NCBI GenBank assembly: GCA_002401155.1
Contig: NVSG01000002.1
Coordinates: forward strand, 593,462 to 657,461
Origin: Hyphomicrobiales bacterium
GTDB taxonomy: Bacteria > Pseudomonadota > Alphaproteobacteria > Rhizobiales > Rhizobiaceae
Length of the DNA stretch: 64,000 nt
Direction: 5' to 3'
Shown here: piece after piece, positions 23,227 to 54,377 of the stretch
Layout of the letters: every line of letters begins with the position of its first letter
Numbering within the stretch: position 1 is the stretch's first letter
The notes under the pieces: model-generated
What the model saw: the letters and a program-made list of their open reading frames with translations, nothing else
Database searches by the model: none
What the model was told of the DNA's origin: nothing
Translations under genes and position numbers: made by a program

Positions 23227-25626
23227 GTGTCAGTTTTACGCAAATTCAACCTTTCCCATCATTTTGTTATCCTTGCGATAATCATGACGATTGGCCTTTT
23301 TTCCATAGGAAATAGTGCCTCAGCCCAAATTTTTGGTCTGGGTTCTGGTCAAAGTTCTAGCGAAAATTCTGACATGGCCGCTGAAATGCAGTCGCTCATC
23401 GAAAAAGCCCAAAAAGACGGTATGAGCATCGTCATTATTTCACCAACGCTCAAGGCCTCTGAGGTGGAAACTGATGATACCGGCATGAAAATGCAGGAAC
23501 GCTCCCTCAAAGTGCGCAATGAAGTAATGCGCATCGTTGGCAATTCAAAAAACTCCTGGCAGGAAATGAAAGACGCCCTGCAAAAAGCCAGCCCAGACGG
23601 TACCATGTGGTGGCTGGCAAAGGCTGTTGGAATTGCTGCTTTGGGCATATTTGTAAGTGGGCTTGTGGGATACCTATTCCGCCGCAGATATGAAAAGCGC
23701 ATGAAGGCCTATTACGAGAGAATGCCGGAAAACCGCGCGGAGAAAATCGCCGCATTGTTATTGCGGGCAGGGGTAATTTTCATCAACTGCGCGCTGATGT
23801 TTATCGTCGCGGCCATCGTTGCGTTGATACTGGATTATGGTCACGAGCCGAGCAGGGCAACCATATTCATCATCATCACATCCTATGCGGCCTACTGGAT
23901 ACTTCGCGCTGTGATCTTCTTCAATATCATCGCACCGGACCTTCCCAATCACCGAATGATCAACATAAAAGATAAGGATGCGTGGGCTTTTCAAAAGGAT
24001 TGGCGCAATTCCATGGGCGTGGTAATTATTGCTCTGGCTTTTTGCGCTTGGATGGATGCGCTGGGGCTCGATAAAGACATCCACAAACTCTTCCTGATTT
24101 CTGCCATGTTATTGGCGGTCGCTATTTTTGCCACCATGATCCTGCGCAACAAGCACGCAATTTCAGACATTATTCTGGGAGCAGGGGAACCAGCATCCAA
24201 ACCTGTATGGCGGCGCATATTTTCAAAAATTGCTCCATTTGTTGGCATCACATATCTGACGATTGCCTGGATTGTCAGCTCAGTCAGAACCATATTGGAT
24301 TGGCCAAGCGCCGATATTCTCGTTGCTGCCCCCATCATATCTTTCATTGTCAGTCTTGCCCTTTACGGGTTGGTGCTGCTGATTATTGATCGTATCTATC
24401 TGGCTCGCAAAATCCGCTTTGAAGAGCGGGTGGAACTTGCGCACCGCTTGGAAGTTGAAAAGCATGCACAGGAACAAGAAGCCCTGCAACAGGCGATGGA
24501 GAACCGGCCCGAGGATGACGAGGAACTGATCATCAATCAGGTCATGTCCACAACCGAAATTGGTGAAATGCCGGTTTTCAAACCTGTGTTCAAATCTCTG
24601 CTCGAACAGGCATCCGGCATGTTCATCATCATTTCTGCCATCGGTTTTGTGTTGGGTACATGGGACGTTAATATCGGCGAAAAAGGCAATCCGATTACTG
24701 CCTTTATGGATACGCTCGCCATCGCATTCTTTGCGTGGTTTTTATACCGTGCGGTCGCAGCCTATATCGATGGCCAGATGGAGGACGAAGACGATGGCCC
24801 CGGTGATGAAGAGGAACCAAGCGGCGAAATGCCCGCTCACGGCGCCACCCGCCACGCAACGCTTTTGCCACTCATTCGTAACGTCATCATCACCACGATT
24901 GTCATTCTTACCGGCATGGTGCTGCTCTCGAATATGGGCGTTGATATCGCGCCACTCTTTGCCGGTGCCGGGGTGATTGGCCTCGCCGTAGGCTTTGGCG
25001 CCCAAACCCTCATTCGTGATATTTTCTCCGGCGGCTTCTTTCTGTTCGATGATGCTTTCCGTAAAGGCGAATATATTGAACTGGGCACTATTCGCGGCAC
25101 GGTCGAAAAGATCTCTCTGCGCTCGTTCCAGCTGCGCCACCATAATGGGCCGCTACATACGGTTCCTTTCGGCGAGATCAAGCAGCTCACCAATTATTCC
25201 CGCGACTGGGTAATGATGAAGCTGCCGCTTCGCGTGACCTACGACACCGATGTGGAACGGGTCCGCAAGCTAGTGAAAAAGCTCGGACAAAAACTGCTGG
25301 AAAACGAAGAAATCGGCCACATGTTCCTGCAACCCCTGAAATCTCAAGGGGTCTATAAGATGGAAGATAGCGCCATGATCATCCGGGTTAAATTCATGTC
25401 CAAACCGGGTGATCAGTTCGTCATGCGAAAATTTGTTTACGCTGAAATTCGTGACCTGTTCGAACGTGAAGGCATCAAATTCGCTCACAAAGAAGTAACG
25501 GTTCGCATTGCAGAAGAACCAGCCAAAAAACTTGATGATGTAGCCAAATTGGCAATCGCTGCGGGAGCCGCACAATCGGTGACCGAAGAACAAGCTTTGC
25601 CGGAAGTAAAAGATGATGGTCCTTAG
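23227..25626 (+). CDS. Large MscS-family mechanosensitive channel
   Basis: An inner-membrane channel that releases solutes on hypo-osmotic shock. The 799-residue protein starts with GTG at 23227 behind GGAGA. A signal peptide (about 1-35, cleavage after SASA) is followed by a periplasmic domain (about 36-125), then about ten hydrophobic helices, with a charged cytoplasmic stretch at about 395-435. The pore-lining MscS helix is recognisable at about 577-605 (FAGAGVIGLAVGFGAQTLI followed by RDIFSGGFF). The beta domain starts with FRKGEYIELGTIRGTVEKI, and the C-terminal alpha/beta vestibule follows. It is longer than MscS (286) and similar in plan to YbdG/YbiO-type channels. It ends convergent with the cupin gene, stops overlapping by 4 bp. 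Confidence 0.93.
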   Translation: MSVLRKFNLSHHFVILAIIMTIGLFSIGNSASAQIFGLGSGQSSSENSDMAAEMQSLIEKAQKDGMSIVIISPTLKASEVETDDTGMKMQERSLKVRNEVMRIVGNSKNSWQEMKDALQKASPDGTMWWLAKAVGIAALGIFVSGLVGYLFRRRYEKRMKAYYERMPENRAEKIAALLLRAGVIFINCALMFIVAAIVALILDYGHEPSRATIFIIITSYAAYWILRAVIFFNIIAPDLPNHRMINIKDKDAWAFQKDWRNSMGVVIIALAFCAWMDALGLDKDIHKLFLISAMLLAVAIFATMILRNKHAISDIILGAGEPASKPVWRRIFSKIAPFVGITYLTIAWIVSSVRTILDWPSADILVAAPIISFIVSLALYGLVLLIIDRIYLARKIRFEERVELAHRLEVEKHAQEQEALQQAMENRPEDDEELIINQVMSTTEIGEMPVFKPVFKSLLEQASGMFIIISAIGFVLGTWDVNIGEKGNPITAFMDTLAIAFFAWFLYRAVAAYIDGQMEDEDDGPGDEEEPSGEMPAHGATRHATLLPLIRNVIITTIVILTGMVLLSNMGVDIAPLFAGAGVIGLAVGFGAQTLIRDIFSGGFFLFDDAFRKGEYIELGTIRGTVEKISLRSFQLRHHNGPLHTVPFGEIKQLTNYSRDWVMMKLPLRVTYDTDVERVRKLVKKLGQKLLENEEIGHMFLQPLKSQGVYKMEDSAMIIRVKFMSKPGDQFVMRKFVYAEIRDLFEREGIKFAHKEVTVRIAEEPAKKLDDVAKLAIAAGAAQSVTEEQALPEVKDDGP

Positions 25627-26487: not shown

Positions 26488-28395
26488 ATGGAACGTGACG
26501 AAGGCGTATTATTGAAGGTTGATGACCTGCGTGTCTCCTTTGACGTTCAAGGGGGAAGCGTCGAAGCTGTCAAAGGCATCAGCTTTGAGGTGAAAAACGG
26601 ATCGGTGCTTGCGCTTGTCGGAGAATCCGGCTCGGGAAAATCCGTAATTTCGCAGGCAATTTTGAGAATTCTTCCTGACAATGGTCGCATCGATTCCGGT
26701 AAAATTCTGTTCTGCGATCCCAATGGAAATGGCGACGTAATCGATCTTGCTGCCATGAGTAACCGCGATCCTTATCTCTATAAATTACGCGGTGGGCGCA
26801 TATCCATGGTATTTCAGGAGCCCATGACCGCGCTTTCTCCTTTGCACACGATCGGCAATCAGGTGGAAGAGGCTTTGACCCTGCACCACAAAAAAACCAA
26901 AGCAGAAGCAAAAACCGACACGGAAGAAGTCTTGAAACTGGTCGGGTTTCCTGATCCGGCACGCGCTTACGAAATGTATTCTTTTGAATTATCCGGCGGT
27001 TTGCGCCAGCGTGCGGTGATTGCTATGGCGCTGATTTGTAATCCCGCAATGGTGATCGCCGATGAGCCGACAACGGCGCTCGATGTAACTGTTCAGGCGC
27101 AAATTCTGGGGCTCATGAAAGAGCTGCAGAAAAAATTCAACATGGCAATTTTGCTGATCACCCACGACCTTGGCGTTGTCGCTAATATGGCCGACGAAGT
27201 GGTGGTGATTTATCATGGCGAAGTGATGGAAGCGGGCACGGTTGATGATATTTTCAACAATCCGCAGCACCCTTACCTCAAGGCTTTAATGGCGGCGATC
27301 CCGCATTTCGATATGGCTCCTGGAGAGCGTTTGGTCTCCCTTCGTGAAATGGGCGCAGAAGATGGTGTGAAAGCACTCGGCAGTCAGTTTGCTGTTTCCC
27401 GTGAAGTGAAGAACATGGAGGGTCCCCATCTTCAGGTGACCAATCTGCGCAAGGAATTCACCATCCGAAGGGGAAGCTGGTTCGGAAGTTCGCTTGCCAA
27501 TACAATTGTCGCGGTTGATAATGTCAGCCTCGAAGTAAAGCAAGGCGAGTGCCTCGGCCTGGTGGGCGAAAGTGGCTCTGGTAAAACCACCGTGGCAAAG
27601 CTGGTTATCCGCGCGCTCGAAGCAACTTCCGGCGAGGTTAAATTCAATTCAGCAAACGGCATGCAGAACGTTCTTGAATTGAACAAGCAAGAATTGCTGG
27701 AGTTCAGAAAAACCGTCCAGATGATTTTTCAGGACCCGTTCAGTTCCCTCAATCCGCGCATGACTGTGCAAAATATTTTGCGTGAACCTTTTCAAATTCA
27801 TAGGCAAGGCATCGGCGATGAACAACGCGATCAAGTTGTAGAACTGATGAAATTGGTGGGCCTTGATCCACGGTTTTTGAACCGCTATCCCCATTCATTT
27901 TCCGGCGGCCAGCGCCAGCGCATCGGCATCGCAAGAGCATTGGCATTGCATCCTGAAATGTTAATTTGCGACGAACCCGTTTCCGCACTTGATGTATCGG
28001 TTCAAGCGCAAATTCTCAATCTTCTCAATGATTTGCGCAAAGAACTTGGCCTAAGCAGCCTGTTCATTTCGCACAATCTGGCGGTGGTAAATTATGTTGC
28101 CGACCGCATCGCTGTGATGTGTCGAGGCAAGATTGTGGAGATCGCTTCATGCGAAGAATTATTCGAAAATCCGACCCATCCCTATACCAAATCGCTGTTG
28201 GCCTCGGTGCCATATCCTGATTTGGACAGGCTGTTGGATTTTGAAGAAATAATGAAATCAAGAACCTTTGATATAACCGCATGGGGTGGTGCGTTTTCAG
28301 TTTCTGAAGGCGGCACACTTGGACATATTAAAGTGGGCGACGATCATTTTGTCCTCGCCAATGAAAATTGTGACAGAACGGAGTTGAGTGCATGA
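26488..28395 (+). CDS. Dual ATP-binding protein of a Dpp/Opp-type ABC importer
   Basis: Two complete ABC ATPase domains in one 635-residue chain, as in YejF or GsiA. The first domain has Walker A GESGSGKS at about 46-53, the signature LSGGLRQR near 172 and Walker B VIADEP near 190. The second has Walker A GESGSGKT near 360, signature FSGGQRQR near 475 and Walker B LICDEP near 493. Each is followed by the OppD/F-type C-terminal segment ([13 protein letters not shown] and [15 protein letters not shown]). It energises uptake by the two permeases encoded downstream. Its stop overlaps the next start by 4 bp (ATGA). An extra C-terminal stretch of about 45 residues has no match I recognise. Confidence 0.93.
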
Positions 28396-30299
28396 GTAGG
28401 GTTTTGAGTATGCTGGCGAAGAGTTGCGCAGCAATTATTGGTCTCATAATTTTTGCAGGTTCGGTTGCATGGGCAGGTGAAGCGCCGGAACTGGCCTCGC
28501 TTGTTGAGCAAAAGAAACTTCCGCCACTGGAAGATCGCTTGCCGAAAAATCCTTACGTGGTTGACTACAAAAAAGAGCAAAAAACCATCGGCAAATATGG
28601 CGGCGAAATGCGCCTGTTAATGGGCCGTGCCAAAGATCTCGGTCAGATTACCGTTTACACCTATGCAAGGCTGATTGGCTTCACGCCGGGTCTCGAAATG
28701 AAGGCCGATATTCTGGAATCCATTGATGTAAAAAATGGTCGTGAGTTTACTCTCAAAATTCGCGAGGGCCATCGCTGGTCCGATGGTAAATTATTCACCT
28801 CCGAAGATTTTCGCTATTATTGGGAAGACATGATCGGTAACGAACAATTGGGACGTGCAGGCGTACCGTCCACCATGCGGGTGGAAGGTGAGGGGCCGGA
28901 ATTCAAGGTAATTGATTCTCTCACGATCCGTTACACATGGGCAAAACCAAACCCGGCATTTCTGCCAGCTTTGGCCGGGCCTTCACCGCTTTATATCTAT
29001 CGTCCTGCCCATTATATGAAGCAGTTCCACGCCAAATATGGCGACGAAGAAAAGTTAAATGAGATTGCCCGTGAAGCTGGTTCCAAGGATTGGTCGGGCA
29101 TACACACACGCAAACAGCGTCAACGCCGCCCGGAAAATCCGGACCTTCCAACCTTGCAGGCTTGGCGCAACACAACGTCTCCGCCAAGCCAGCGTTTCGT
29201 TTTCGAGCGCAATCCGTTTTATCATCGGGTCGATCCCGACGGAAACCAGCTTCCCTATATCAATAAACTGATTATGAGCATCGCCTCCAAGGGCGTGATA
29301 CCGGCAAAAACCGGTGCCGGTGAAAGTGATTTGCAGGCTCGTTATCTGCGCTTTGATAATTTCACATTTCTGAAAGAAGTGGAAGACGACAACAATTTCA
29401 ATACCTATCTGTGGTCAACGGGTAAGGGGTCGCAGGTTGCGCTTTTTCTGAACATGAACACCAATGATCCGGTCTGGCGTGGTCTCATGCGCGACGTTCG
29501 TTTCAGACGGGCCTTGTCTCTGGGCATTGACCGCGAAGAAATCAACGAGACCATTTATTTCGGTCTCGCATCTCCAAGCGCCAATACGGTGCTGCCGCAA
29601 AGCCCGCTCTACCGGGATGAATATGCGCAAGCGTGGGCTGAATACGATGTTGATACGGCAAACCAGCTACTCGATGACGCAGGCCTCGGCGCTCGCGATG
29701 AGGACGGCATAAGACTGCTCCCCAACGGTGAGCGCGCTGAAATCACCATCGAAAGTGCTGGCGAAAGCACAGAAGAATCCGATGTGCTTGAGCTGATCTC
29801 AGACCATTGGAGCAATATCGGGATTAAGGTATTTATCCGCTCGTCCCAACGCGATATTTTCCGCCGCCGCGCCAATGCCGGCGAGACGTTGATTTCGGTG
29901 TTTTTCGGAATAAATGCCGGTTTGGCATCTTCCCAGCTTAGCCCTGAGGAATTGGCACCAACCGCGCAACCGCAACTGAATTGGCCTAAATGGGGGCAAT
30001 ATTTTGAAACCGGTGGCAAGGCAGGTGAACCGGTTGATCTCCCGGAAGCTGCGAAACAGGTCGAACGTTACAATGCGTGGCTGATTGCCGAGAGCGACGA
30101 GGAACGCACCAGAATCTGGCACGAAATGCTGCACACCTACACCGATCAGGTCTTTTCCATCGGCACGGTAAACAACAGCCGCCAACCAGTAGTGGTTTCA
30201 AAAAAGCTTCAAAACGTCCCCGAAGAAGGCATTTACAGCTGGGAACCAACTGCGTTCTTTGGTGTCTATCGCCCCGATACATTCTGGTTCAAAAAATAA
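28392..30299 (+). CDS. Family 5 extracellular solute-binding protein of ABC importer
   Basis: Periplasmic binding protein, 635 residues. It has an N-terminal signal peptide (hydrophobic core AAIIGLIIFAGSVAWAG, cleavage near residue 28). The SBP_bac_5 domain has LKIREGHRWSDGKLFTSEDFRYYWEDM near 118-145 and VRFRRALSLGIDREEIN near 370. The protein is larger than DppA (about 510), like the sub-group binding oligosaccharides or long peptides. A tract rich in Arg (HTRKQRQRRPEN, about 237-248) is unusual. Ligand is unknown. It is encoded between the ATPase and the permeases, overlapping the former by 4 bp. Confidence 0.9.
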   Translation: MSRVLSMLAKSCAAIIGLIIFAGSVAWAGEAPELASLVEQKKLPPLEDRLPKNPYVVDYKKEQKTIGKYGGEMRLLMGRAKDLGQITVYTYARLIGFTPGLEMKADILESIDVKNGREFTLKIREGHRWSDGKLFTSEDFRYYWEDMIGNEQLGRAGVPSTMRVEGEGPEFKVIDSLTIRYTWAKPNPAFLPALAGPSPLYIYRPAHYMKQFHAKYGDEEKLNEIAREAGSKDWSGIHTRKQRQRRPENPDLPTLQAWRNTTSPPSQRFVFERNPFYHRVDPDGNQLPYINKLIMSIASKGVIPAKTGAGESDLQARYLRFDNFTFLKEVEDDNNFNTYLWSTGKGSQVALFLNMNTNDPVWRGLMRDVRFRRALSLGIDREEINETIYFGLASPSANTVLPQSPLYRDEYAQAWAEYDVDTANQLLDDAGLGARDEDGIRLLPNGERAEITIESAGESTEESDVLELISDHWSNIGIKVFIRSSQRDIFRRRANAGETLISVFFGINAGLASSQLSPEELAPTAQPQLNWPKWGQYFETGGKAGEPVDLPEAAKQVERYNAWLIAESDEERTRIWHEMLHTYTDQVFSIGTVNNSRQPVVVSKKLQNVPEEGIYSWEPTAFFGVYRPDTFWFKK

Positions 30300-30337
30300 G
30301 AATGACAACCTACATGAAATCCGGTGAGCAGAGCTAA

Positions 30338-31336
30338 ATGTTAGGCTATATCTTCAAACGCATTCTCTACATGCTGCCAACGCTGATATTGACCAGCATA
30401 TTGGTGTTTGCATTGATCGAATTGCCACCGGGTGATTATCTGGAAACCTATGTCAATGAATTGCTGGCTGCCGGCGAAACCGTCGACCCGCAGCAAATTG
30501 AATTTTTGCGTCAGGAATATGCCTTTGATCGCCCCGTATGGGAGCGTTATATCAACTGGGCCAGCGGCATGCTGGTGGGTGATTTTGGCTATTCGTTTGA
30601 ATTCCAATTACCCGTCCGCGATGTGATTGGCGATCGTCTTTTCTTCACCATCATTGTCACATTTGCCACCATCATTTTTACATGGGCGATCGCGTTTCCC
30701 ATTGGTATTTATTCCGCGACCCACCAATATAGCTGGGGTGATTACGGCCTTACATTCTTCGGCTTGCTGGGGTTAGCGATCCCTAATTTCCTGCTGGCGC
30801 TGGTGATGATGTATCTGGCGCAAAAATGGTTCAACACATCTATCGGGGGATTGATGGACCCGGAGTTCATCGACAAACCGTTCAGTTGGGCAAAATTCGT
30901 TTCGGTGCTGGAGCATCTCTGGATACCGGTCATCGTGATTGGAACGTCGGGCACTGCAGGCATGATCCGCCGGGTACGCGCCAATTTGCTCGACGAATTG
31001 CGCAGGCCCTATGTCACCACCGCAAGAGCCAAGGGCATGACCGAATTCAAAGGTCTAATGAAGTATCCATTCAGAATGTCGCTCAACTTCTTCATCGCAG
31101 ATATCGGCGGGATTTTGCCGCAAGTGATATCGGGCGCTGAACTAGTTGCCATCGTGCTGTCGCTTGAAACCACCGGCCCATTATTGATTGCAGCTCTGCA
31201 AAGTCAGGACATGTATCTGGCCGGTTCTTTCCTGATGATGCTCGGCTTTTTGACCGTGATCGGCGTCTTGGTTTCAGATATTTTACTGGCAGTCCTTGAT
31301 CCACGTATCCGTCTGCAAGGAGGGATAAGTCGATGA
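30338..31336 (+). CDS. ABC importer permease, DppB-like
   Basis: Inner-membrane permease of 332 residues with six predicted helices. The N-terminus MLGYIFKRILYMLPTLILTSILVF is the classic DppB/OppB start. A periplasmic loop (about 40-100) includes the conserved PVWERYINWASGMLVGDFGYSF. The EAA loop that contacts the ATPase is at about 225-245 (RRPYVTTARAKGM). It overlaps the second permease gene by 4 bp. It is 38 bp after the binding-protein gene. Confidence 0.93.
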   Translation: MLGYIFKRILYMLPTLILTSILVFALIELPPGDYLETYVNELLAAGETVDPQQIEFLRQEYAFDRPVWERYINWASGMLVGDFGYSFEFQLPVRDVIGDRLFFTIIVTFATIIFTWAIAFPIGIYSATHQYSWGDYGLTFFGLLGLAIPNFLLALVMMYLAQKWFNTSIGGLMDPEFIDKPFSWAKFVSVLEHLWIPVIVIGTSGTAGMIRRVRANLLDELRRPYVTTARAKGMTEFKGLMKYPFRMSLNFFIADIGGILPQVISGAELVAIVLSLETTGPLLIAALQSQDMYLAGSFLMMLGFLTVIGVLVSDILLAVLDPRIRLQGGISR

Positions 31337-32505
31337 GCACGCCCACGAAATCTACAAAGCTGGAGCATTACGTCAATCCGGCACCATTTGACCCTCAATC
31401 CATCGAGAATATGACCCCGGAGCAGGAAGCCATCTTCCTTGCCTCGCAAAAAAAACTGATGTGGTGGAAATTTAAAAAGCACAAGGTCGCGGTGTTTTGC
31501 GGTGGCTTCCTGCTTTTCATGTATCTGGCGATTTTGATCTCAGAAATTCTGGCACCTTATGCGCTGGAAACCCGCAATTCCAAATTCATCTACGCGCCGC
31601 CAAAGGCTTTGCACTTTGTCCATGACGGAGAGTTTGTCGGACCATTCGTCTATAAATTCAAGCGCTCACGCGATCCAAGAACTTTAAAGCGGCTTTATGC
31701 AGAAGATACTAGAAAACCATACCCAATCCGCTTTTTTTGCTCCGGCGACAAATACAAATTCTGGGGCTTCATCAAAGGTGATTTCCATATTGTTTGCCCA
31801 CCGGAGAAAAAGGTGTCGATGTTCTTTTTCGGAGCTGACAGGCTGGGGAGGGATGTGCTGTCGCGCATGATTTACGGCTCGCGAATTTCGCTTACCATTG
31901 GGTTATTGGGTATCTCCATCAGCTTTACGCTCGGCATTATCATCGGCGGGCTGGCAGGCTATTACGGCGGCTGGGTCGATCTGGTCGTCCAACGCATCAT
32001 TGAAGTGGTGCAATCCTTGCCAACCATACCATTATGGTTAGCATTGGCCGCAATCATGCCGGTGACGTGGAGCCCGATTGTGGTCTATTTCGGCATAACG
32101 ATTATTCTGGGGCTGGTGGATTGGACCGGTCTCGCGCGAGCGGTGCGCTCAAAATTACTGTCTCTGCGCGAGGAAGATTACGTTCTCGCCGCGCGCTTGA
32201 TGGGTGCCAGCCCGAAACGCATCATCGGCCTGCATCTCGTGCCCGGCTTTATGAGCCATCTAATTGCGTCTGCAACTATCACCATCCCCACGATGATCTT
32301 GGGTGAAACAGCACTGTCCTTCTTGGGGCTAGGCCTTCGTTCGCCAATCGTCAGTTGGGGTGTGTTGCTCAACGAGGCACAGAACATTAATGTGGTGGCG
32401 CTTTATCCATGGCTGATGTTGCCGGTGCTTCCGGTAATCCTGATCATCCTCGCCTTCAACTTCTTCGGCGATGGTCTAAGAGATGCAGCTGATCCATACG
32501 GTTAA
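31333..32505 (+). CDS. ABC importer permease, DppC-like with periplasmic insertion
   Basis: Second permease, 390 residues. A cytoplasmic N-terminal tail of about 50 residues leads to the first helix (FCGGFLLFMYLAILISEIL). A periplasmic segment of about 100 residues follows (about 75-170, including two Cys, FFCSGDKYKFWG and IVCPPEKKV), much longer than in DppC and reminiscent of YejE-type subunits. Then FFGADRLGRDVLSRMIYGSRISL starts the standard five-helix core, and the EAA loop is LREEDYVLAARLMGASPKRII at about 278-298. Its stop overlaps the convergent deacetylase gene by 4 bp. Confidence 0.92.
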   Translation: MSTPTKSTKLEHYVNPAPFDPQSIENMTPEQEAIFLASQKKLMWWKFKKHKVAVFCGGFLLFMYLAILISEILAPYALETRNSKFIYAPPKALHFVHDGEFVGPFVYKFKRSRDPRTLKRLYAEDTRKPYPIRFFCSGDKYKFWGFIKGDFHIVCPPEKKVSMFFFGADRLGRDVLSRMIYGSRISLTIGLLGISISFTLGIIIGGLAGYYGGWVDLVVQRIIEVVQSLPTIPLWLALAAIMPVTWSPIVVYFGITIILGLVDWTGLARAVRSKLLSLREEDYVLAARLMGASPKRIIGLHLVPGFMSHLIASATITIPTMILGETALSFLGLGLRSPIVSWGVLLNEAQNINVVALYPWLMLPVLPVILIILAFNFFGDGLRDAADPYG

Positions 32506-33302
32506 GAAATTGGTTCGGCAGGCTCGCTGATTAGGCTGTCAGCTGTAACCCAATCGACTTTACCCTCAAGCGTTGCATAAAGCTTGTCGAGCATCGCCCA
32601 TGCCTTGTCGTCATGGGCCAGATGATGACTGAGAATACCAATCGCACGACCACCCTTTTTGCGGGCAATTTCGAGATTGAGGGTCACCTGATTCAGCACC
32701 CAATTATGCTCGCGTCCAATGGTGCCCGCTGACCAGTGCATGATGTCCACATGGGTATTCACCATGGGGAGCGGCATTTCGTGCTTGAGCCACGCATGGA
32801 TAGAAAGCCCTTTAAATCCAAGCTCTTGCAACTCATTGATAATCTCATCATGGATGCGGTTCCACGGCGGCACAATGATGTCCGATAAATTACCGTCAAA
32901 AAGCTCAAGCAGTTTTTCCCGGCCCTCCCGTAATTCGCCAAGAACGGTTTCAAGCGGACGGTGATTTCCCAATTCACAGGTTTTTACACCCTCGGGAGAA
33001 TAATTCCTGTGGCGATATCCATGCACCGCGCCACGCACCAAAGGGCTTTTCCGAACTCGAGCACCCAACGCTTTGGATGCAGGCTTTGGGATGGTCGCGA
33101 GCAGCAACGGAACGCTAAAATTCTCGCATGACGCAATCAGCTTTTCCAACGCAGGCGTCACTTCAATCGCATCATCATCGCGCAAAAAAAGCCTCGGCTT
33201 CTGCCCCATGGATTGCCACAAATCCAACTCCTGATGGAGCGCATCCATGCAGGCGTTTTCAGCAGGGACCGGTGGGTCGATTTTAGATTTGGAAGGTGCC
33301 AC
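32502..33302 (-). CDS. Polysaccharide deacetylase-family protein (NodB fold, cytoplasmic)
   Basis: A 266-residue protein related to the NodB/CE4 superfamily that removes acetyl groups from N-acetyl sugars. The metal-binding motif is LRDDDA (Asp42-Asp44), and the second motif is the HxxxH in HGYRHRN (His94 and His98). VPPWNRIHDEIINELQELGFKGLS (about 142-165) matches the motif-3 region. There is no signal peptide or membrane helix, so it should act inside the cell on a nucleotide-sugar, lipid-linked or other soluble glycan. It lies 2 bp after a glycosyltransferase gene, evidently co-transcribed, and convergent with the ABC importer. Activity on a defined substrate is unproven. Confidence 0.8.
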   Translation of the reverse strand: MAPSKSKIDPPVPAENACMDALHQELDLWQSMGQKPRLFLRDDDAIEVTPALEKLIASCENFSVPLLLATIPKPASKALGARVRKSPLVRGAVHGYRHRNYSPEGVKTCELGNHRPLETVLGELREGREKLLELFDGNLSDIIVPPWNRIHDEIINELQELGFKGLSIHAWLKHEMPLPMVNTHVDIMHWSAGTIGREHNWVLNQVTLNLEIARKKGGRAIGILSHHLAHDDKAWAMLDKLYATLEGKVDWVTADSLISEPAEPIS

Positions 33303-33304
33303 GC

Positions 33305-34504
33305 TCAGTCTTTCAATAATTCATCAATAATGGTTTTCAACCGCTCTGCTGCGGAAGTCGCCGACCGCTCATTCAGCGCAAAGTCCTTTGCACCGGCACC
33401 AAGGTTAGTCCGTAATTTAGGGTCGATAATCATCTGTTCAAGGGCGCGAGCATATCCATTTTCTTCATTCGGGTCCGCCAGCAATCCGGTCCGCTGGTGT
33501 TCCACCACCAACGGCACGCCCATATTATCAAGCGCAACGGTTGGCACACCAAAACATGCGGCCTCCAGATAAACCATGCCATAGGCTTCGCGGCATCCGG
33601 GCCATGCGAGAATATCTGCTTCTGCCATCAGAGAAATCACTTCCTCCGGCGACTTTTCCCCAGCAAAAACCACCCGTTTATCAGCCCAGGAAAACAGCTC
33701 GCAAACCTCTTCCATGCCGGGGCCGCCCCCAGCAATTACCAGTGACCAGTTCAATTGTTCAATGCTTTGAAGGCTCTCGGCAAGAACCTTGTAACTATCA
33801 AGCTTGGCGCCGGGACGCATCATGCCAACGCATAATAGCTTCACGGCATCACCGTCTGGCCAAAGGGCAGGGGCATCAAAATCATTTGCTTCAATAAGTA
33901 ATTCCCGATCAATAAACGGCGGCATCCACACAACTTTTTCATCATCAATAAATGTGGATAAATACGCTTTGTCCGAATGGGTCATAACGATGTTCATCGC
34001 TGCCATTTTAATGCCGCGTTGAGATTCTTTGCGCCACGGAACCCATTCGCCATTTGGTCCCTGACCGGTTTTGCAGGGTTCTGCCGTAATCATGGGAATA
34101 TTCAACCGTTCACAGATTTCCATGCCCAGCCAATCGGGAGATTTGTCGTAAGGATGATAGCAAAACCATAAATCAGGTTTTGTGCCGTTCTCTTGCCATT
34201 GGTCGATGATCAGCTGTGCTTCCTCATGCGACCCAGCAATGCGAGCATCCATATGCTCTTTGGCGTGGCGCTTTGAATAGGAAATATATTTGCTGGCGAG
34301 TTCCACCTCATATCCCGCATGTTCAAGCGCGGCGAATAGCATACGCGCCATCTGCCTGTCGCCGGAGGGGATAGGATGGTCCGGTGGTTTCAAAGGGGCG
34401 TAGAAGGCAATTTTTATTCGTTGGCTCAAGATATACCCGACAATTTCAGCATTGCTTGTTTTCGTCACAAATATATAGAATAACACTGGTTTAAAGTCAT
34501 CCAC
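33305..34504 (-). CDS. GT4-like glycosyltransferase
   Basis: A GT-B-fold sugar transferase of up to 399 residues. The N-terminal domain starts around residue 29 (RIKIAFYAPLKPPDHPIPSGDRQMARML). The C-terminal GT4 motif is FAGEKSPEEVISLMAEADILAWPGCREAYGMVYLEAACFGVPTVA, containing the EX7E-type acidic pair. The first 25-28 residues from the ATG at 34504 do not look like part of the fold. A TTG at 34429 would give about 374 residues and a more normal 119-bp divergent promoter region, but neither start has a good ribosome site. It leads the deacetylase gene. Sugar donor and acceptor are unknown. Confidence 0.85.
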   Translation of the reverse strand: MDDFKPVLFYIFVTKTSNAEIVGYILSQRIKIAFYAPLKPPDHPIPSGDRQMARMLFAALEHAGYEVELASKYISYSKRHAKEHMDARIAGSHEEAQLIIDQWQENGTKPDLWFCYHPYDKSPDWLGMEICERLNIPMITAEPCKTGQGPNGEWVPWRKESQRGIKMAAMNIVMTHSDKAYLSTFIDDEKVVWMPPFIDRELLIEANDFDAPALWPDGDAVKLLCVGMMRPGAKLDSYKVLAESLQSIEQLNWSLVIAGGGPGMEEVCELFSWADKRVVFAGEKSPEEVISLMAEADILAWPGCREAYGMVYLEAACFGVPTVALDNMGVPLVVEHQRTGLLADPNEENGYARALEQMIIDPKLRTNLGAGAKDFALNERSATSAAERLKTIIDELLKD

Positions 34505-34548
34505 GCGCCATATCTAAATATCAAAGTTATGTGCAAAGGGCAGAATAA

Positions 34549-35811
34549 ATGATTACACAGACACGGCGCCTGGAGCATGTACGTATTTTGATGTACAGCC
34601 ACGACACATTTGGCCTTGGCCATTTACGCCGTTGTCGTGCGATAGCGCACGCAATTGTTGAGCGTTTCAAGGGGGTGAATGTCATCATCATCTCCGGTTC
34701 GCAGATTGCCGGAGCGTTTGATTTTCGTGCCCGTGTTGATTTCGTCAAAATTCCCAGCGTCATCAAACTCTATAATGGCGAATATTCTTCTGTCGGTGAA
34801 TATATCGATCTGGAAGACATTCTAGAGATGCGAAAGTTGATCATCCAGAAGACCGCCGAGGTTTTTGCGCCGGATATTTTCATTGTTGATAAAGAACCTC
34901 TCGGATTAAAGGGCGAATTGCTGCCAACATTGGAAATGTTTAAAGACAGCAATACCAAAACCGTTCTCGGACTGCGCGATGTCATGGATGCGTCCCATTT
35001 GCTGGAGAAGGAATGGTCAAAGCGCAATGTGCTCGAAAATATCGCTAAGCTATATGATCGGGTTTGGGTCTACGGCCCGCAATCGTTCTGGAATCCGCTA
35101 GAGGGACTGGATGTTCCCAAGGCTGTGAGCAAACGTTTGGCCTATACAGGATTTCTTGAACGTGATGTGCCAGCTCACCCCGCCAATGATGCCGCCGCGC
35201 CCTATTTGCCGGAGAAATATATTCTGGTGACCGCCGGTGGAGGTGGAGATGGCAGCGTGCTGATGGAGCAGGTGCTGGCCGCGCGTGAATACGATAGGAA
35301 AGTTGATTTCCCGATTGTCATGGTGCTCGGCCCTTTCATGAAAAACGATAGCCGTGCCCGCATTCGCAATCGCGCGGCGGGTCTTTCAAACGTCATTGTG
35401 CTGGATTTTGAAACTCGCATGGAAGTGTTGCTCAAAAACGCCGTGGCCGTGGTTGGAATGTGCGGTTACAACACGTTTTGTGAAGTGCTGTCCTTCGACC
35501 GCAAAGCTTTATTCGTACCAAGAACCGTCCCGCGTCAGGAACAATATATCCGTGCCAGCCGTGCCCGTGAACTGGGCCTGTGCGATATGCTGACTCCGGA
35601 AGAAGCTTCCGTTCCAAGAGCTTTGGCTGACGCATTGCACAGATTGCCGGATTTGAATAAGCCATCCCTTCATTTGGAGCCAAATTCGCTCAATGGTCTC
35701 GATATCATTTGCGATGAAGTAGAGGCATTGGTTTCCGGCAACACCAGCGAGATTGCCGATGGTGCGATGGATAAGGACGAATCCAGCCAGACGATCGGCT
35801 CGTCCGCTTGA
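34549..35811 (+). CDS. GT28/COG4671-like glycosyltransferase
   Basis: A 420-residue MurG-like GT-B protein. Near the N-terminus MYSHDTFGLGHLRRCRAIA (residues 15-33) carries the GxGHxxR glycine loop typical of GT28 and COG4671 proteins. The C-terminal half has VTAGGGGDGSVLM and VVGMCGYNTFCEVLSFDRKALFVPRTVPRQEQYIRA, the UDP-sugar-binding region in which Gln and Glu contact the nucleotide. A disordered acidic tail of about 25 residues ends the chain. It heads a three-gene operon; its stop overlaps the next TTG start by 4 bp. It is a paralogue of the third gene of that operon. Confidence 0.82.
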   Translation: MITQTRRLEHVRILMYSHDTFGLGHLRRCRAIAHAIVERFKGVNVIIISGSQIAGAFDFRARVDFVKIPSVIKLYNGEYSSVGEYIDLEDILEMRKLIIQKTAEVFAPDIFIVDKEPLGLKGELLPTLEMFKDSNTKTVLGLRDVMDASHLLEKEWSKRNVLENIAKLYDRVWVYGPQSFWNPLEGLDVPKAVSKRLAYTGFLERDVPAHPANDAAAPYLPEKYILVTAGGGGDGSVLMEQVLAAREYDRKVDFPIVMVLGPFMKNDSRARIRNRAAGLSNVIVLDFETRMEVLLKNAVAVVGMCGYNTFCEVLSFDRKALFVPRTVPRQEQYIRASRARELGLCDMLTPEEASVPRALADALHRLPDLNKPSLHLEPNSLNGLDIICDEVEALVSGNTSEIADGAMDKDESSQTIGSSA

Positions 35812-37067
35812 ACCGGAAAAAGATCAATCTCGTTTTGAAAGGCTATCCCCGTCTTTCAGAAACGTTCATCGCTCAGGAAATTCTTGAGCTTGAACGCGTT
35901 GGGTTCGAGATCGAAATCATCTCCCTGCGCCGTCCTTATGATAAAGGCACGCACCCCATCCACGATGAAATTTCCGCAAAACTGAGCTACCTCCCGGAAT
36001 ATCTCCACGAAGAACCATGGCGCGTATTCAAGGCATGGCTCAAGGCGCGAAATATGACCGGTTATCGTGCTGCGTTCCAGAAATTCAAAGCTGATTTAAA
36101 GCGCGACTGGACGAGAAATCGCATTCGCAGATTCGGTCAGGGGCTTGTATTGGCGGCGGAATTTTCCCATAGCGCAAATCTTTTTTATGCCCATTTCCTG
36201 CATACGCCAGCCTCTGCTACGAGATATGCTTCGATCATTTCGGGCGTTCCATTTTCCGTTTCGGCTCATGCAAAAGACATCTGGACATCGCCCGACTGGG
36301 AGCTGGCAGAAAAGCTTGCCGATTGCCAGTGGTGCGTTACCTGCACCAAAGGCGGCATGGAGAAACTGGCAAGCCTTGCGCCGGACAGCGATCGTGTAAA
36401 ACTGGTTTATCACGGGCTGGACCTGTCGCGCTTTCCTCCGCCCAAAGGCAAGCGCCCGGTGGATGAAAAGCGCGATGGAAGCGATGCCGATAAACCAATT
36501 CGGCTAATCACGGTCGGTAGGGCCGTGGCCAAAAAAGGCATCGATAATCTGCTCAATGCCTTGGCAAAATTGCCCAATGACCTTCACTGGCAGTGGACCC
36601 ATATTGGCGGTGGCGAGTTGCACGATGACCTTGTGCAACAGGCAAAAGAGCTTGGAATCATTGAAAATTGTAACTTCCTCGGTTCGAAATCCCAGCAGGA
36701 AGTGATCGCGGAATATAAGACTTCCGATATTTTCATCCTGCCATGCAAGATTGATGAAACAGGGGATCGCGACGGCCTGCCAAATGTGATTGTCGAAGCC
36801 GAAAGCCAACAGCTTCCCGTTATCACCACACCAATTTCCGGCATTCCGGAATTGATCCGCGACGATGGCAATGGCGTATTCGTTCAGCCAGATGATCTCG
36901 ACGAACTATGTGCCGCAATTGCCTCTCTCACCCAAGACCCCGAGCGCCGCAAACGGCTGGGTCTCGAAGGCGAAAAGAATGTGCGGGAAGATTTCGACCA
37001 CCTCTCAACCATCGGCCAATTGGTGGAATTATTAGACAACAGCCTTTCTAGATCGAGAACATCATGA
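35808..37067 (+). CDS. GT4-family glycosyltransferase (WcaL-like)
   Basis: A 419-residue GT-B transferase. It starts with TTG at 35808 overlapping the TGA of the previous gene (TTGA); no ATG is available before the conserved KINLVLKGYPRLSETFIAQEI. That segment and FYAHFLHTPASATRYASIISGVPFSVSAHAKDIW are typical of WcaL/colanic-acid-type GT4. The C-terminal domain has IRLITVGRAVAKKGIDNLLNAL, and the EX7E motif is in DGLPNVIVEAESQQLPVITT. It overlaps the next gene by 4 bp (ATGA). Acceptor unknown. Confidence 0.87.
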   Translation: MNRKKINLVLKGYPRLSETFIAQEILELERVGFEIEIISLRRPYDKGTHPIHDEISAKLSYLPEYLHEEPWRVFKAWLKARNMTGYRAAFQKFKADLKRDWTRNRIRRFGQGLVLAAEFSHSANLFYAHFLHTPASATRYASIISGVPFSVSAHAKDIWTSPDWELAEKLADCQWCVTCTKGGMEKLASLAPDSDRVKLVYHGLDLSRFPPPKGKRPVDEKRDGSDADKPIRLITVGRAVAKKGIDNLLNALAKLPNDLHWQWTHIGGGELHDDLVQQAKELGIIENCNFLGSKSQQEVIAEYKTSDIFILPCKIDETGDRDGLPNVIVEAESQQLPVITTPISGIPELIRDDGNGVFVQPDDLDELCAAIASLTQDPERRKRLGLEGEKNVREDFDHLSTIGQLVELLDNSLSRSRTS

Positions 37068-38230
37068 ACGAGACCGTGAAGCCAAAAGTTATGTTTTACG
37101 TCCAGCATTTGTTGGGCATCGGTCATGTCTTCCGCGCGGTTCGCGTTGCTCAGGCGCTGGCAAGAGCTGGTTGTGAAACCCATGTGGTCTGGGGTGGCAC
37201 AAAGATTGAGAGCCTCAACACCGATGGTCTGCAAATGACCTATCTGGAAGCTGTACGCGTCCAGAACGAAGATTTCAAAACTTTGTTAAAGATCGACGGA
37301 ACGCCGATTTCCGAAGAGGGAAAACAACAACGCGGCCGAAATTTACTGGGCCTGTTCCATCGGGTAAAGCCTGATATCGTTATCACCGAAGCCTATCCGT
37401 TCGGACGACGGCAAATGCGCTTTGAACTTCTGCCATTGCTGGAAGCTGTCAAAAATGCCGACTGGCACCCGATGATGGTCTCATCCATCCGCGATATTAT
37501 GCAGGAAAATAGGGTGGAAAAACGGGTGCGCGAATCCATCGATCTTATCAAAAACTGGTTTGATCTGGTGATGGTCCACGGAGATGAAGCGCTGATTTCT
37601 GTTGGCGAGACCCTGCAAAATACCGACGAGATTGCCGATAAAATTGTTCACACAGGTTTGGTGACCCCGGAGCCGGTAAATCTGGATATTGCTCCAAGCG
37701 TAAGTCCGGATGTGTTGGTTTCCGCAGGCGGCGGGGCAGTGGGGTTGGGTCTGATGAAGGTCGCGATTAAAGCCATGAACCATTGCGAAAAATTCCCGAC
37801 CAATTGGCTTTTGGTAACCGGTCCGGATTTACCGCAAACTGAATTTGATCAATTATTAAAGGACGTCCCGACCGGCATGGACGTGATCCGGTTTATCCCT
37901 GACCTTGCCCGTGTCATGGCGGCAGCTAAGGTATCTGTCTCAAGGGCCGGTTATAATACGGTGGGCGATATTTTGCGCGCCGGAACGAGCGCCGTGCTTG
38001 TTCCATTTGCCGGAGGAATTGAAACAGAACAATTACGCCGGGCACAAATGATGGATGAACGCGGCGTTGCAACCTTGCTTCTGGAAGAAGAGCTTTCGCC
38101 GGAAAGCCTTGCTAAAAGTATCGATGCCGCCGCTGCAAAGCCTGTTGCAGCAATCGATCTGGACCTTAATGGTGCCGACAATGCAGCAAAAATGCTTATC
38201 AATACTCATCAAAATCATATGGCCAAATAA
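37064..38230 (+). CDS. GT28/COG4671-like glycosyltransferase (second paralogue)
   Basis: A 388-residue MurG-like GT-B protein with HLLGIGHVFRAVRVAQALARAG at residues 15-36 (GxGHxxR). The C-terminal nucleotide-sugar site includes VSAGGGAVGLGLM, SRAGYNTVGDILRAGTSAVLVPFAGGIETEQLRRA near 310-345. It aligns along its length with the first gene of the operon but is clearly diverged, so the pair probably catalyses two different steps. It is the last gene of the operon; 144 bp follow before the Liv-type binding protein. Confidence 0.82.
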   Translation: MNETVKPKVMFYVQHLLGIGHVFRAVRVAQALARAGCETHVVWGGTKIESLNTDGLQMTYLEAVRVQNEDFKTLLKIDGTPISEEGKQQRGRNLLGLFHRVKPDIVITEAYPFGRRQMRFELLPLLEAVKNADWHPMMVSSIRDIMQENRVEKRVRESIDLIKNWFDLVMVHGDEALISVGETLQNTDEIADKIVHTGLVTPEPVNLDIAPSVSPDVLVSAGGGAVGLGLMKVAIKAMNHCEKFPTNWLLVTGPDLPQTEFDQLLKDVPTGMDVIRFIPDLARVMAAAKVSVSRAGYNTVGDILRAGTSAVLVPFAGGIETEQLRRAQMMDERGVATLLLEEELSPESLAKSIDAAAAKPVAAIDLDLNGADNAAKMLINTHQNHMAK

Positions 38231-46779: not shown

Positions 46780-48702
46780 ATGGCCGACCAGAACGCACTG
46801 ATTGAATCAGATATTAACGCCTATCTTGATCAACACCAGACCAAAACCATGCTGCGCTTCATCACCTGCGGCAGCGTGGACGATGGAAAATCAACCCTCA
46901 TTGGCCGCTTGCTTTACGAATCCAAACAGGTTTTCGAAGATCAGTTGGCAGCCCTTGAGGTTGATTCCAAAAAGCTCGGCACCCAAGGCAATAACCTCGA
47001 CTTCGCTTTGCTGGTCGATGGCCTCGCCTCCGAGCGCGAGCAGGGCATCACCATCGATGTGGCCTATCGTTATTTTTCCACCGAGAAGCGAAAATTCATC
47101 GTTGCCGATACACCGGGCCACGAACAATATACCCGCAACATGGCGACGGGGGCCTCAACCGCCGACCTTGCGATCATCCTGATTGATGCGCGTCACGGCG
47201 TGCAAACCCAGACTCGTCGTCATTCCTATATTGCATCTTTGCTCGGCATCAAAAAAATCGTGCTGGCAATCAACAAGATGGATTTGATGGATTACAGCGA
47301 GGAAACCTTTGATAATATTGTCAGCGACTATCAGGGTTTTGCTAAAAATCTGGCTGAAAAAACCGGCAATGATCCTTCCATCAAACCCATCCCTCTTTCC
47401 GCGTTGATCGGTGATAATATCACTAAAAACAGCGAAAACATGCCTTGGTACGATGGCCCGACGCTGATTGATTATCTTGAAACGGTTGAAGTTGAAGATG
47501 AGGATTTAGATCGTCCTTTCCGCATGCCGGTGCAGTGGGTCAATCGTCCCAATCTCGATTTTCGTGGGTTTTCCGGCCTCATTTCATCAGGCAACATCAA
47601 ACCCGGCGATGCCATCAAGGTTCTACCTTCAGCAAAAACCAGCACGGTCAAATCGATTGTCACCATGGACGGAGATTTACCAGAAGCCATTGCAGGTCAA
47701 TCAGTTACGCTGACGCTTGAAGATGAAATCGATATTTCCCGGGGTGATTTGATCTGCGCCGCACAAAGCCCGTCGGAAGCTGCCAACCAGTTTGAAACCA
47801 CGATTTTATGGATGGCCGATGAAGCCATGTTGGCAGGGCGCTCTTATATCCTAAAGAGCGGCGCGCAAACAGCTACTGCTACAGTCACCGCGCCCAAATA
47901 TAAGATCAACGTCAACACGCTGGAAGAGCTGGCAGCTCGAAAACTCGAACTCAACGAGATTGCCGTTTGTAATATTGTGCTCGATAAATCGATCGCCTTT
48001 GATCCCTACACGGAAAATCGCGACACGGGCGGCTTCATCCTGATTGATCGCTACACCAACACGACCGTTGGCGTCGGCATGATCAATTTTGCCCTTCGCC
48101 GTGCTTCCAACATTCACTGGCAATCCGTTGATACCGATAAGAAAACCCGCACCAAACTCATGGGGCAAAAACCTGCGATCCTGTGGTTCACGGGCCTGTC
48201 TGGTTCCGGCAAATCGACCATTGCAAACTTTGTCGAGAAAAAACTCACGGCCCTTGGCCGTCACACCTATCTGCTGGATGGTGATAATGTTCGCCACGGC
48301 CTGAATAAGGATTTGGGTTTTACCGATGCTGATCGGGTAGAAAATATCCGCCGCATCGGGGAGGTTTCAAAACTGATGGTTGATGCCGGGCTGATCACGC
48401 TAGTATCCTTCATTTCTCCCTTCCGCTCTGAGCGTCGAATGGCGCGGGAATTGGTGGAAAAGGACGAGTTTTTCGAAATCTACGTCGATACCCCGCTGGA
48501 AGTTGCAGAAGCAAGAGACGTCAAAGGCCTCTATAAGAAAGCCCGCGCAGGTGAGTTGAAAAACTTCACCGGGATTGATTCCCCCTATGAAGAACCTGAA
48601 AATCCTGAAATGCGTGTTCAAACAACCACACTCAGCGCCGAAGAGGCTGCCGATTTCATCATTGAACGTCTTAATAAATCGGGTATTATTGACGTTGATT
48701 GA
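46780..48702 (+). CDS. cysNC: Bifunctional sulfate adenylyltransferase subunit 1/APS kinase
   Basis: A fusion of the regulatory GTPase CysN and the APS kinase CysC, 640 residues (NodQ-type). The GTPase domain has GSVDDGKST near 31-39, DTPGHEQY near 111-118 and NKMD near 166; EF-Tu-like beta domains follow to about 440. The kinase domain starts near 455 with Walker A GLSGSGKS from Gly472, followed by [15 protein letters not shown] and [15 protein letters not shown]. The product PAPS feeds cysteine synthesis or sulfotransferases. The sulfate reductase genes (cysH, cysIJ) are not in the window. Confidence 0.96.
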
Positions 48703-52655: not shown

Positions 52656-54377
52656 ATGGCTAAACAGCTAAAAATATCAGTCGGGCAACACACCGACAAA
52701 GGCCGCAAGGAAATCAATCAGGATTTCCACGGCGTCTATATTCCCGAAGAACCTCAGCTAACTTCAAAGGGCATCGCCATCGCTTTGGCCGATGGTATCT
52801 CAAGCAGTAATGTCAGCCAGATCGCCAGCGAATCGACGGTGGCAAGTTTCCTCGATGACTATTTTTGCACCTCTGAAGCATGGTCGGTCAAAAAGTCAGC
52901 CCAGCAGGTTCTAACCGCCACTAATTCCTGGCTTCATGCGCAAACCCGCCAAAGCCAATATCGCTACGATAAAGACCGGGGCTATGTTTGTACCCTCAGC
53001 GCTATGGTCATCAAATCGACAACCGCCCATATCTTTCATGTGGGCGATACCCGCATCTACCGCTTGCGTGACAAGGCGCTGGAACAATTGACCACTGACC
53101 ACCGGCTATGGGTTTCGCAGGATAAAAGCTATCTCAGTCGCGGTATGGGTATCAATGCTCAACTCGAAATCGAATATAAATCCTTGCAGGTGGAAGCAGG
53201 GGATATCTTTTTATTCGCTACCGATGGTGTTTATGAATTTGCCAGTTCCCGATTCATAATCAATGCCATAGCCAAGAATGCCAACGACCTTGATCAGGCC
53301 GCTAAGCTCATTGTTGAAGAGGCTTTGGAGCAAGACAGCGACGATAATCTCACCGCTCAGATCATTCGGGTAGACGAACTTCCCAGCAAGGATGTGGATG
53401 AAGCCTATCAGCAACTGACCCAGCTACCATTCCCGCCGATTCTGGAAGCCCGAATGGAACTGGATGATTTCACAATCATCAGGGAAGTGCATGCAAGTTC
53501 GCGCAGTCATGTTTATCTAGCCGTCGATAACGAAACCAGCACGCCGGTGATAATGAAGACGCCATCCGTGGATTTGCAGGGCGATCCTGCCTATCTGGAG
53601 CGCTTCTTATTGGAGGAGTGGATTGCCCGGCGTATCAACAGCCCCTACGTGCTGAAACCCTGTATGCAGAACCGCAAGCGTAATTACCTCTATATCACTT
53701 CGGAATTCATCGACGGTCAGACACTGACCCAGTGGATGATCGATAACCCCAAGCCCGATCTTGAAACCGTGCGCGGCATTGTCGAACAAATCGCAAAGGG
53801 CCTGCGCGCTTTCCATCGATTGGAAATGCTGCATCAGGATTTAAGACCAGCCAACATTATGATCGACACCACCGGTACGGTGAAGATCATTGATTTCGGT
53901 TCAACGAAAGTCGCCGGGATTTCTGAAATCTCAACACCGATAGAACAAAGCAATCTGCAAGGCACGGCACAATATACAGCGCCCGAATATTTGTTAGGGG
54001 AAAGCGGCACTTCGCGCTCCGATATCTTTTCCCTCGGTGTCATTACGTATCAAATGCTGACGGGAAAATTGCCCTACGGTGCAGAGGTTGCAAAAACCAA
54101 AACAAAAGCTGCACAGAAAAAATTGCAGTATATGTCTGTTCTTGATGACGAGCGTGAAATTCCGGCATGGGTTGATGACACCATCAAAAAATCAGTGCAC
54201 CCCGATCCCTATAAACGCTATGAGACCTTGTCTGAATTCCTCTATGAATTGCGCCATCCCAGCAAGGAGTTCCTGAATAAGACCCGCGCGCCGTTGCTGG
54301 ACCGTGATCCCGTTATTTTCTGGAAAGCAATTTCGCTCATTCTGGGGGGCGTTATCATCGCATTGCTGGCGAAGTGA
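52656..54377 (+). CDS. Membrane-anchored PP2C phosphatase/Ser-Thr protein kinase
   Basis: A 573-residue two-domain signalling protein. Residues 1-245 form a PP2C phosphatase with NQDF, ALADGISSS, HVGDTRIYRL, FATDGVYEF and DDNLTAQI, covering the metal-binding Asp residues. Residues 270-530 form a Hanks-type kinase with the ATP-binding Lys301 (VIMKTP), catalytic loop HQDLRPAN (His393, Asp395), DFGSTKV and GTAQYTAPEYL. The glycine-rich loop is degenerate (EVHASSRSHVYLA). A single C-terminal membrane helix (FWKAISLILGGVIIALLA) anchors it with both domains in the cytoplasm. It lies next to the FNT channel, which may be its target. The order phosphatase then kinase in one chain is uncommon in general but recurs beside nitrogen-anion transporters. 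Confidence 0.9.
   Translation: MAKQLKISVGQHTDKGRKEINQDFHGVYIPEEPQLTSKGIAIALADGISSSNVSQIASESTVASFLDDYFCTSEAWSVKKSAQQVLTATNSWLHAQTRQSQYRYDKDRGYVCTLSAMVIKSTTAHIFHVGDTRIYRLRDKALEQLTTDHRLWVSQDKSYLSRGMGINAQLEIEYKSLQVEAGDIFLFATDGVYEFASSRFIINAIAKNANDLDQAAKLIVEEALEQDSDDNLTAQIIRVDELPSKDVDEAYQQLTQLPFPPILEARMELDDFTIIREVHASSRSHVYLAVDNETSTPVIMKTPSVDLQGDPAYLERFLLEEWIARRINSPYVLKPCMQNRKRNYLYITSEFIDGQTLTQWMIDNPKPDLETVRGIVEQIAKGLRAFHRLEMLHQDLRPANIMIDTTGTVKIIDFGSTKVAGISEISTPIEQSNLQGTAQYTAPEYLLGESGTSRSDIFSLGVITYQMLTGKLPYGAEVAKTKTKAAQKKLQYMSVLDDEREIPAWVDDTIKKSVHPDPYKRYETLSEFLYELRHPSKEFLNKTRAPLLDRDPVIFWKAISLILGGVIIALLAK

Follow-up and report, generated by a model that had tools for sequence, protein, structure and literature searches.

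What is made by five closely packed genes for sugar-handling enzymes among which no flippase, polymerase or nucleotide-sugar gene is found? The question is raised by positions 32502-38230 of a 64,000-nucleotide stretch of DNA from a Hyphomicrobiales bacterium of the Rhizobiaceae (assembly GCA_002401155.1, contig NVSG01000002.1, positions 593,462 to 657,461; the whole stretch is called the window here), where a gene for a putative de-N-acetylase and four glycosyltransferase (GT) genes form two divergent operons. A preliminary description, made from the sequence alone, recorded this gene content correctly but took the locus to stand alone and to match no known pathway. Both of the latter points have to be given up. 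The locus is this organism's version of an alphaproteobacterial gene cluster whose counterpart in the root-nodule bacterium Sinorhizobium meliloti has been described as that of the "phazolicin-protecting polysaccharide" (PPP), a pathway known genetically, not chemically. The set in relatives is usually larger by an ABC importer, a protein of MsbA-like ABC type and a cyclic-nucleotide-binding (CNB) protein, to which the Rhizobiaceae often add a nucleotide-sugar dehydrogenase.

Organization of the locus

The five open reading frames (ORFs), P0001 to P0005, are intact at the coordinates first given for them, with gaps or overlaps of 2-4 bases within each operon. The ORF described as P0002 is present, but its true start is probably TTG 34429 rather than GTG 34504, because homologue matches begin at P0002 residues 27-30. 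A four-gene ABC importer (26488-32505) is part of the same conserved set; the convergent 3' ends of its second permease gene and of P0001 overlap by 4 bases.

32502..33302, minus strand: P0001, predicted cytosolic NodB-fold (CE4-like) de-N-acetylase, 266 aa
33305..34504, minus strand: P0002 (GT4a), GT4 glycosyltransferase, counterpart of smb21252
34430..34548: divergent intergenic region, 119 bases if P0002 starts at 34429
34549..35811, plus strand: P0003 (GT28a), GT28-type GT-B glycosyltransferase
35808..37067, plus strand: P0004 (GT4b), WcaL/EpsE-like GT4 glycosyltransferase
37064..38230, plus strand: P0005 (GT28b), GT28-type glycosyltransferase
26488..28395, plus strand: ABC importer fused double ATPase, 61% identity to its pSymB counterpart
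28392..30299, plus strand: ABC importer family-5 solute-binding protein (SBP), 51% to its pSymB counterpart
30338..31336, plus strand: ABC importer permease 1, 68% to its pSymB counterpart
31333..32505, plus strand: ABC importer permease 2, 69% to its pSymB counterpart

Counterparts in the PPP cluster of S. meliloti

On pSymB of S. meliloti 1021, the stretch 822.6-841 kb carries a counterpart of each of the five genes and of the importer (identities 37-69%), and ABC and CNB genes then extend to 845.0 kb. The P0001 counterpart is found at 823674-824441, that of P0002 at 822571-823659 (E 4.9e-79), and those of P0003, P0004 and P0005 at 837-841 kb, with P0004 matching 838374-839606; for both P0002 and P0004 these are the only pSymB matches at E<=1e-20.

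The smb tags were assigned by counting ORFs along pSymB from exoF3/SMb21245, not from the annotated 1021 record. The start of SMb21245, derived from a table in PMC12542648 (813,544 + 77 = 813,621), coincides with an ORF start, and the eighth ORF counted from SMb21245, that is SMb21252 at 822,580, is the P0002 counterpart. The count also agrees with products given in the available parts of the published sources, namely SMb21247 (deacetylase), SMb21248 (aminotransferase), SMb21249 (sulfotransferase) and SMb21250 (glycosyltransferase), and SMb21257, published there as a truncated adenylate cyclase, lands on an interrupted cyclase. The other operon has three GT genes, smb21265 among them; its product label (glycosyltransferase family protein) and the ORF count are compatible with more than one of the three.

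The PPP cluster was found in 2023 by transposon sequencing and was named after its putative product (PMC10128002). According to the available text of that report, resistance to the antibiotic phazolicin needs nine genes between smb21252 and smb21271, and mutants in smb21252 and smb21265 had a minimal inhibitory concentration of phazolicin of 0.18 vs 1.47 ug/mL, being 8-fold more sensitive (PMC10128002). The same text states that orthologues scored in a pyocyanin screen of A. tumefaciens and that several of the genes probably matter in Medicago (PMC10128002), while in the accessible part of a second report seven of the nine PPP genes rise under Myxococcus attack (PMC10315480). In the literature searched, the PPP name occurs in these two papers only, with the product uncharacterised in the available parts of both, and the tags smb21253, 21264, 21266, 21267, 21269 and 21270 are mentioned nowhere. 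The Clr-regulated sulfated-polysaccharide cluster nodP2-smb21248, as far as the source is available, is a pSymB neighbour but a different cluster.

Distribution and gene order in relatives

Co-occurrence was scored in 190 genomes of the class Alphaproteobacteria, which are not independent of one another. P0003 was matched in 60 of them (52 of the 152 of good quality) and P0001 in 53, every one of the 53 being also P0003-positive (Fisher p 8.5e-40). The best places for the two proteins lay less than 15 kb apart on one contig in 42 of these 53 genomes (median 5.1 kb). At the level of the order, 28 of 61 genomes had a P0003 match; for the phylum it was 24 of 299, two of the 24 falling outside the class. 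In a set of 72,556 plasmid records, P0003 had matches in 275 and P0001 in 259. Rhizobium contributes 143 records to each total and Sinorhizobium 80; P0003 is also matched in ten plasmid records of Escherichia, of which at most one can match P0001. On a plasmid of Escherichia sp. HH091_1A (L107:12010-22188), a P0003 homologue (30%) heads a different gene set, with two GT4s, an MsbA-like ABC protein, two phosphotransferase-family genes, an alginate-export-family protein and a nucleotide sugar dehydrogenase.

Of the 59 other class genomes with a P0003 match, 40, chosen by score and contig room, then supplied regions of about 20 kb for comparison. All five genes occur together in 33 of the 40, always in the order GT28a-GT4b-GT4a-GT28b-deacetylase on one strand; within this distance 32 of the 33 complete regions also hold importer genes and 26 an MsbA-like ABC protein. 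A CNB gene is present in 30 of the 40 class regions and a PF12692 methyltransferase in 21. In 24 of them a small membrane-protein-like gene, 'Y' (about 165 aa; e.g. L069:15425-15919), occupies the interval between deacetylase and importer. Seventeen further regions (L127-L143) held all five genes in ten cases and that order in seven, the distant regions L124-L126 being excluded from this second tally.

The Rhizobiaceae have a different layout, importer-GT28a-GT4b-GT28b-ABC-CNB, with the GT4a/deacetylase pair at another place close by; a nucleotide-sugar dehydrogenase often accompanies the cluster (in five of six plasmid regions). The window represents a third layout, shared with a near relative (L005), where this pair lies between importer and GT28a. 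A neighbourhood comparison of the kind proposed in the preliminary description thus shows the genes mostly grouped, not scattered. An orphan locus or chance grouping is ruled out by co-occurrence and synteny, and scattering in relatives is ruled out for most of the regions examined, five Anderseniella-type loci being without two of the five genes nearby.

The deacetylase

P0001 is matched by no Pfam model at E<=1 and by no NCBIfam model at E<=0.1. PF01522 (Polysacc_deac_1) is among the Pfam models without a match, and in a search of the bacterium's own genome it matched only other places; a sequence-profile search of the PDB gave a peptidoglycan deacetylase as the sole match, at E 0.96. The metal motifs noted earlier for this protein are nonetheless confirmed, D42, D43, D44, H94 and H98 (motifs RDDD and HGxxH) being invariant across 36 homologue rows (alignment A1, built from 38 extracted deacetylases and excluding L007, which is partial, L088, which was mis-extracted, L067 and L093). 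PPWNR (145-149), D186, W190, H226 and H227 are invariant in the same alignment, and we take DDD, HxxxH, PPWNR, D..W and HH to be NodB-type motifs.

The best of five AlphaFold models had a mean pLDDT of 72.7 and the other four 66.5 to 45.9, a moderate quality due to the 3-sequence alignment from which they were built. In Foldseek the first match of the model was a Bacillus cereus peptidoglycan deacetylase (E 4.2e-6), and in VIA-align a polysaccharide deacetylase of M. smegmatis was best (Z 17.5, root-mean-square deviation 3.2, 214 residues), the peptidoglycan deacetylase of H. pylori giving Z 17.3. The modelled P0001 is of NodB fold, a predicted member of the CE4/NodB deacetylase superfamily with metal and catalytic motifs.

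The N-terminus of P0001 has no hydrophobic stretch of the kind seen in the window SBP, which served as positive control (peak 2.92); over the 36 rows of the family the N-terminal hydrophobic peak has a median of 0.73 and a maximum of 1.96. P0001 should therefore act in the cytosol, as do presumably most of its family, in keeping with the intracellular deacetylation suggested before from the missing signal peptide.

The four glycosyltransferases

The division of the transferases into two GT4 enzymes, with P0004 WcaL-like, and two GT28-like enzymes stands. Pfam PF00534 (GT4) matches P0002 at 8.8e-24 and P0004 at 1.1e-32, and PF04101 (GT28 C-terminal domain) matches P0003 at 5.8e-8 and P0005 at 5.3e-17. 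The GxGHxxR loop is present in both of the latter, and an alignment of 39 GT28-type rows shows no variation at its residues G22, G24, H25 and R28. P0003 and P0005, first described simply as paralogues, are related, but at 23% identity they are distant ones.

As to the suggested comparison with MurG, the P0003 model is GT-B (pLDDT 79.6), and calicheamicin and macrolide glycosyltransferases come first in Foldseek, with MurG at ranks 37 and 44. Membership in the MurG family (TIGR01133) was rejected, P0005 scoring 50.1 and P0003 18.3 bits against a curated cut-off of 250.25.

The importer

By its sequence relationships the importer is of a putative oligosaccharide type, Opp/SPH1118-like. The window SBP matches PDB 5ipw at 1.9e-82, SPH1118 from Sphingomonas A1 at 4.3e-70 and an alpha-galactoside-binding protein at 2.6e-32; its resemblance to families that bind nickel and opine-metal complexes is weak. 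SPH1118 binds pectin and has a role in pectin assimilation and chemotaxis, according to the available parts of its descriptions (PMC9314435, PMC7055323). A Yej-type muropeptide importer was rejected, the permeases fitting Opp4B/Opp4C better than the Yej models (233 vs 108 and 256 vs 121 bits), with all these scores under cut-off; a separate YejABEF exists in S. meliloti, as stated in the accessible text of PMC10128002.

An importer beside GT genes would also fit a small soluble glycoside that acts outside the cell like a metallophore or signal, being exported and then retrieved by an Opp/Nik-type system. The similarity of the SBP to metal-binding families is in line with this, as is the failure to see a polymerase or priming enzyme, and 34 of the 40 class regions contain, between GT4a and GT28b, a gene for a histidine phosphatase; a GT, a histidine phosphatase and a deacetylase together follow the logic of mycothiol or aminoglycoside assembly. 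We consider this unlikely, since the stronger relatives of the SBP bind pectin and alpha-galactosides, there are four GTs, the nucleotide-sugar dehydrogenase adjoins the cluster in most plasmids, and the S. meliloti GT mutants, as far as the source is available, show a barrier phenotype. The window cluster, moreover, has no histidine phosphatase, a remote one lying elsewhere in the genome (40% over 135 residues).

Alternatively, the importer could feed the pathway, taking up environmental acidic oligosaccharides (pectin or algal) for the GTs to extend or modify. Importer and GT genes adjoin in both main gene orders, the SBP is related to pectin-binding SPH1118, and S. meliloti, Phyllobacterium and Rhizobium FKL33 have a polysaccharide lyase gene (PF14099) close by. 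The lyase is, however, present in few regions overall, the phazolicin phenotype was seen, in the available text, without stated addition of oligosaccharide, and we know of no case of imported oligosaccharides serving as GT acceptors in such a locus, all of which makes this very unlikely.

An MscS-type mechanosensitive channel gene (window 23227-25626) lies two genes upstream of the importer, and such a gene likewise adjoins the importer in Sulfitobacter (L109). Elsewhere in the window, 52656-54377 encodes a single protein fusing PP2C phosphatase and protein kinase domains, and 46780-48702 a sulfate-assimilation fusion of a GTP-binding elongation-factor-like domain with APS (adenosine 5'-phosphosulfate) kinase.

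The MsbA-like ABC protein and its partner

The ABC protein of the cluster has MsbA as its best NCBIfam relative, at 180 bits vs a cut-off of 602. In 18 such proteins (L055:17788-20502 and 17 homologues, alignment A5), the Walker A lysine is kept in nine and the Walker B 'DE' in one. The nucleotide-binding domain has an apparently tripled Q-loop/helical segment, with hhalign probabilities of 97.6 and 91.0 for two segment pairs; the third pair (r1 vs r2) was uninformative, recovering only its own built-in overlap. In Azospirillum (L108:4187-7336) and Sulfitobacter (L109:20045-23149) the ABC protein carries the CNB domain as a C-terminal fusion, and the two therefore probably act together; elsewhere the CNB domain is usually encoded by the next gene. 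The ABC gene of S. meliloti 1021 (L144:33667-36436) consists of two overlapping reading frames, though the cluster is needed for phazolicin resistance; in strain Ak57 it is likewise just a 762-aa ORF.

Kinship with MsbA could mean that this protein flips a lipid-linked oligosaccharide which decorates the lipopolysaccharide core, lipid A or proteins. The set is without a polymerase, and GT28 (MurG-like) enzymes often act on lipid carriers. The low MsbA score speaks against this, as does the lack of any recognised oligosaccharyltransferase, ligase or priming transferase in the regions examined, and such a product seems quite unlikely.

Proposed function and significance

The locus probably makes, as a PPP-type locus, an envelope glycan built by four GT-B enzymes in the cytoplasm, with an amino sugar that is de-N-acetylated before export. 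P0002-P0005 would build the oligosaccharide or polysaccharide, and P0001 would de-N-acetylate an amino-sugar residue in it before assembly is complete, much as NodB acts on Nod factors. The glycan would then cross the inner membrane, in most relatives probably via the MsbA-like ABC protein and its CNB partner, and form an envelope barrier. De-N-acetylation before export would leave it with a free amine, whose charge may help to repel cationic peptides. Oligosaccharides of this glycan, or of a similar one, are probably taken back up by the adjoining importer.

Several observations weigh against this reading. The window genome (G000) has no MsbA-like cluster protein, its best match being a generic ABC protein at E 2.5e-12, and its only CNB-like protein is remote (27%) and encoded elsewhere; as the genome is 66% complete, the ABC gene may be absent from the assembly, or another exporter may serve. 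The decayed ATPase motifs of many ABC members speak against a plain exporter, and no outer-membrane channel, priming transferase or polymerase was recognised in the set. In the available text the nine phazolicin genes are given by range only, the deacetylase and importer not being identified among them, and the product comes without chemistry, "polysaccharide" having been deduced by Travin et al. As to conservation, two of the 53 P0001 genomes (G064, G071) have weak P0003 matches, probably to a paralogue; the compared stretches of the Anderseniella-type loci (L006, L008, L010, L011, L012) contain the GT28a-GT4b-GT28b trio but nothing corresponding to P0001 or P0002; P0002 is unmatched at E<=1e-20 on a Phyllobacterium plasmid; and its match in R. 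leguminosarum lies at a distance of 27 kb.

What is new here is that homologous PPP clusters are widespread, that they conserve a predicted cytosolic deacetylase, from which a positively charged amino sugar in the glycan is to be expected, and that an oligosaccharide importer and a cyclic-nucleotide-linked ABC protein are tied to the cluster. For the PPP glycan of S. meliloti, which has mutant phenotypes but no structure, the comparison makes its identity directly testable. More speculatively, and with considerable doubt, the genes might constitute a secretion-and-retrieval cycle for a partly de-N-acetylated envelope glycan, with a new kind of ABC protein joined to a cyclic-nucleotide sensor, a dedicated importer, and a second messenger setting the thickness of the barrier; if so, the cycle would be present in about a third of the sampled alphaproteobacterial genomes.

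Comparison with known systems

The five genes and the importer all have homologues in the PPP cluster, where, as in the window, GT4a adjoins the deacetylase and the order is importer-GT28a-GT4b-GT28b. What sets the window apart from the PPP cluster is that the GT4a/deacetylase pair sits, in divergent orientation, between importer and GT28a, and that genes for an MsbA-like protein, a CNB protein, a methyltransferase, a cyclase, a lyase and a dehydrogenase are all absent beside the locus. The window importer resembles the muropeptide/microcin C importer YejABEF in being Opp-type with a fused double ATPase. Its SBP is related to that of the SPH1118 system, which serves pectin assimilation and chemotaxis, whereas the window importer is linked to biosynthesis genes. 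P0001 has in common with NodB and the CE4 enzymes the NodB fold and the invariant DDD, HxxxH, PPWNR, D..W and HH motifs; unlike the known members, it is without a Pfam match, and NodB itself is cytosolic, as predicted for P0001.

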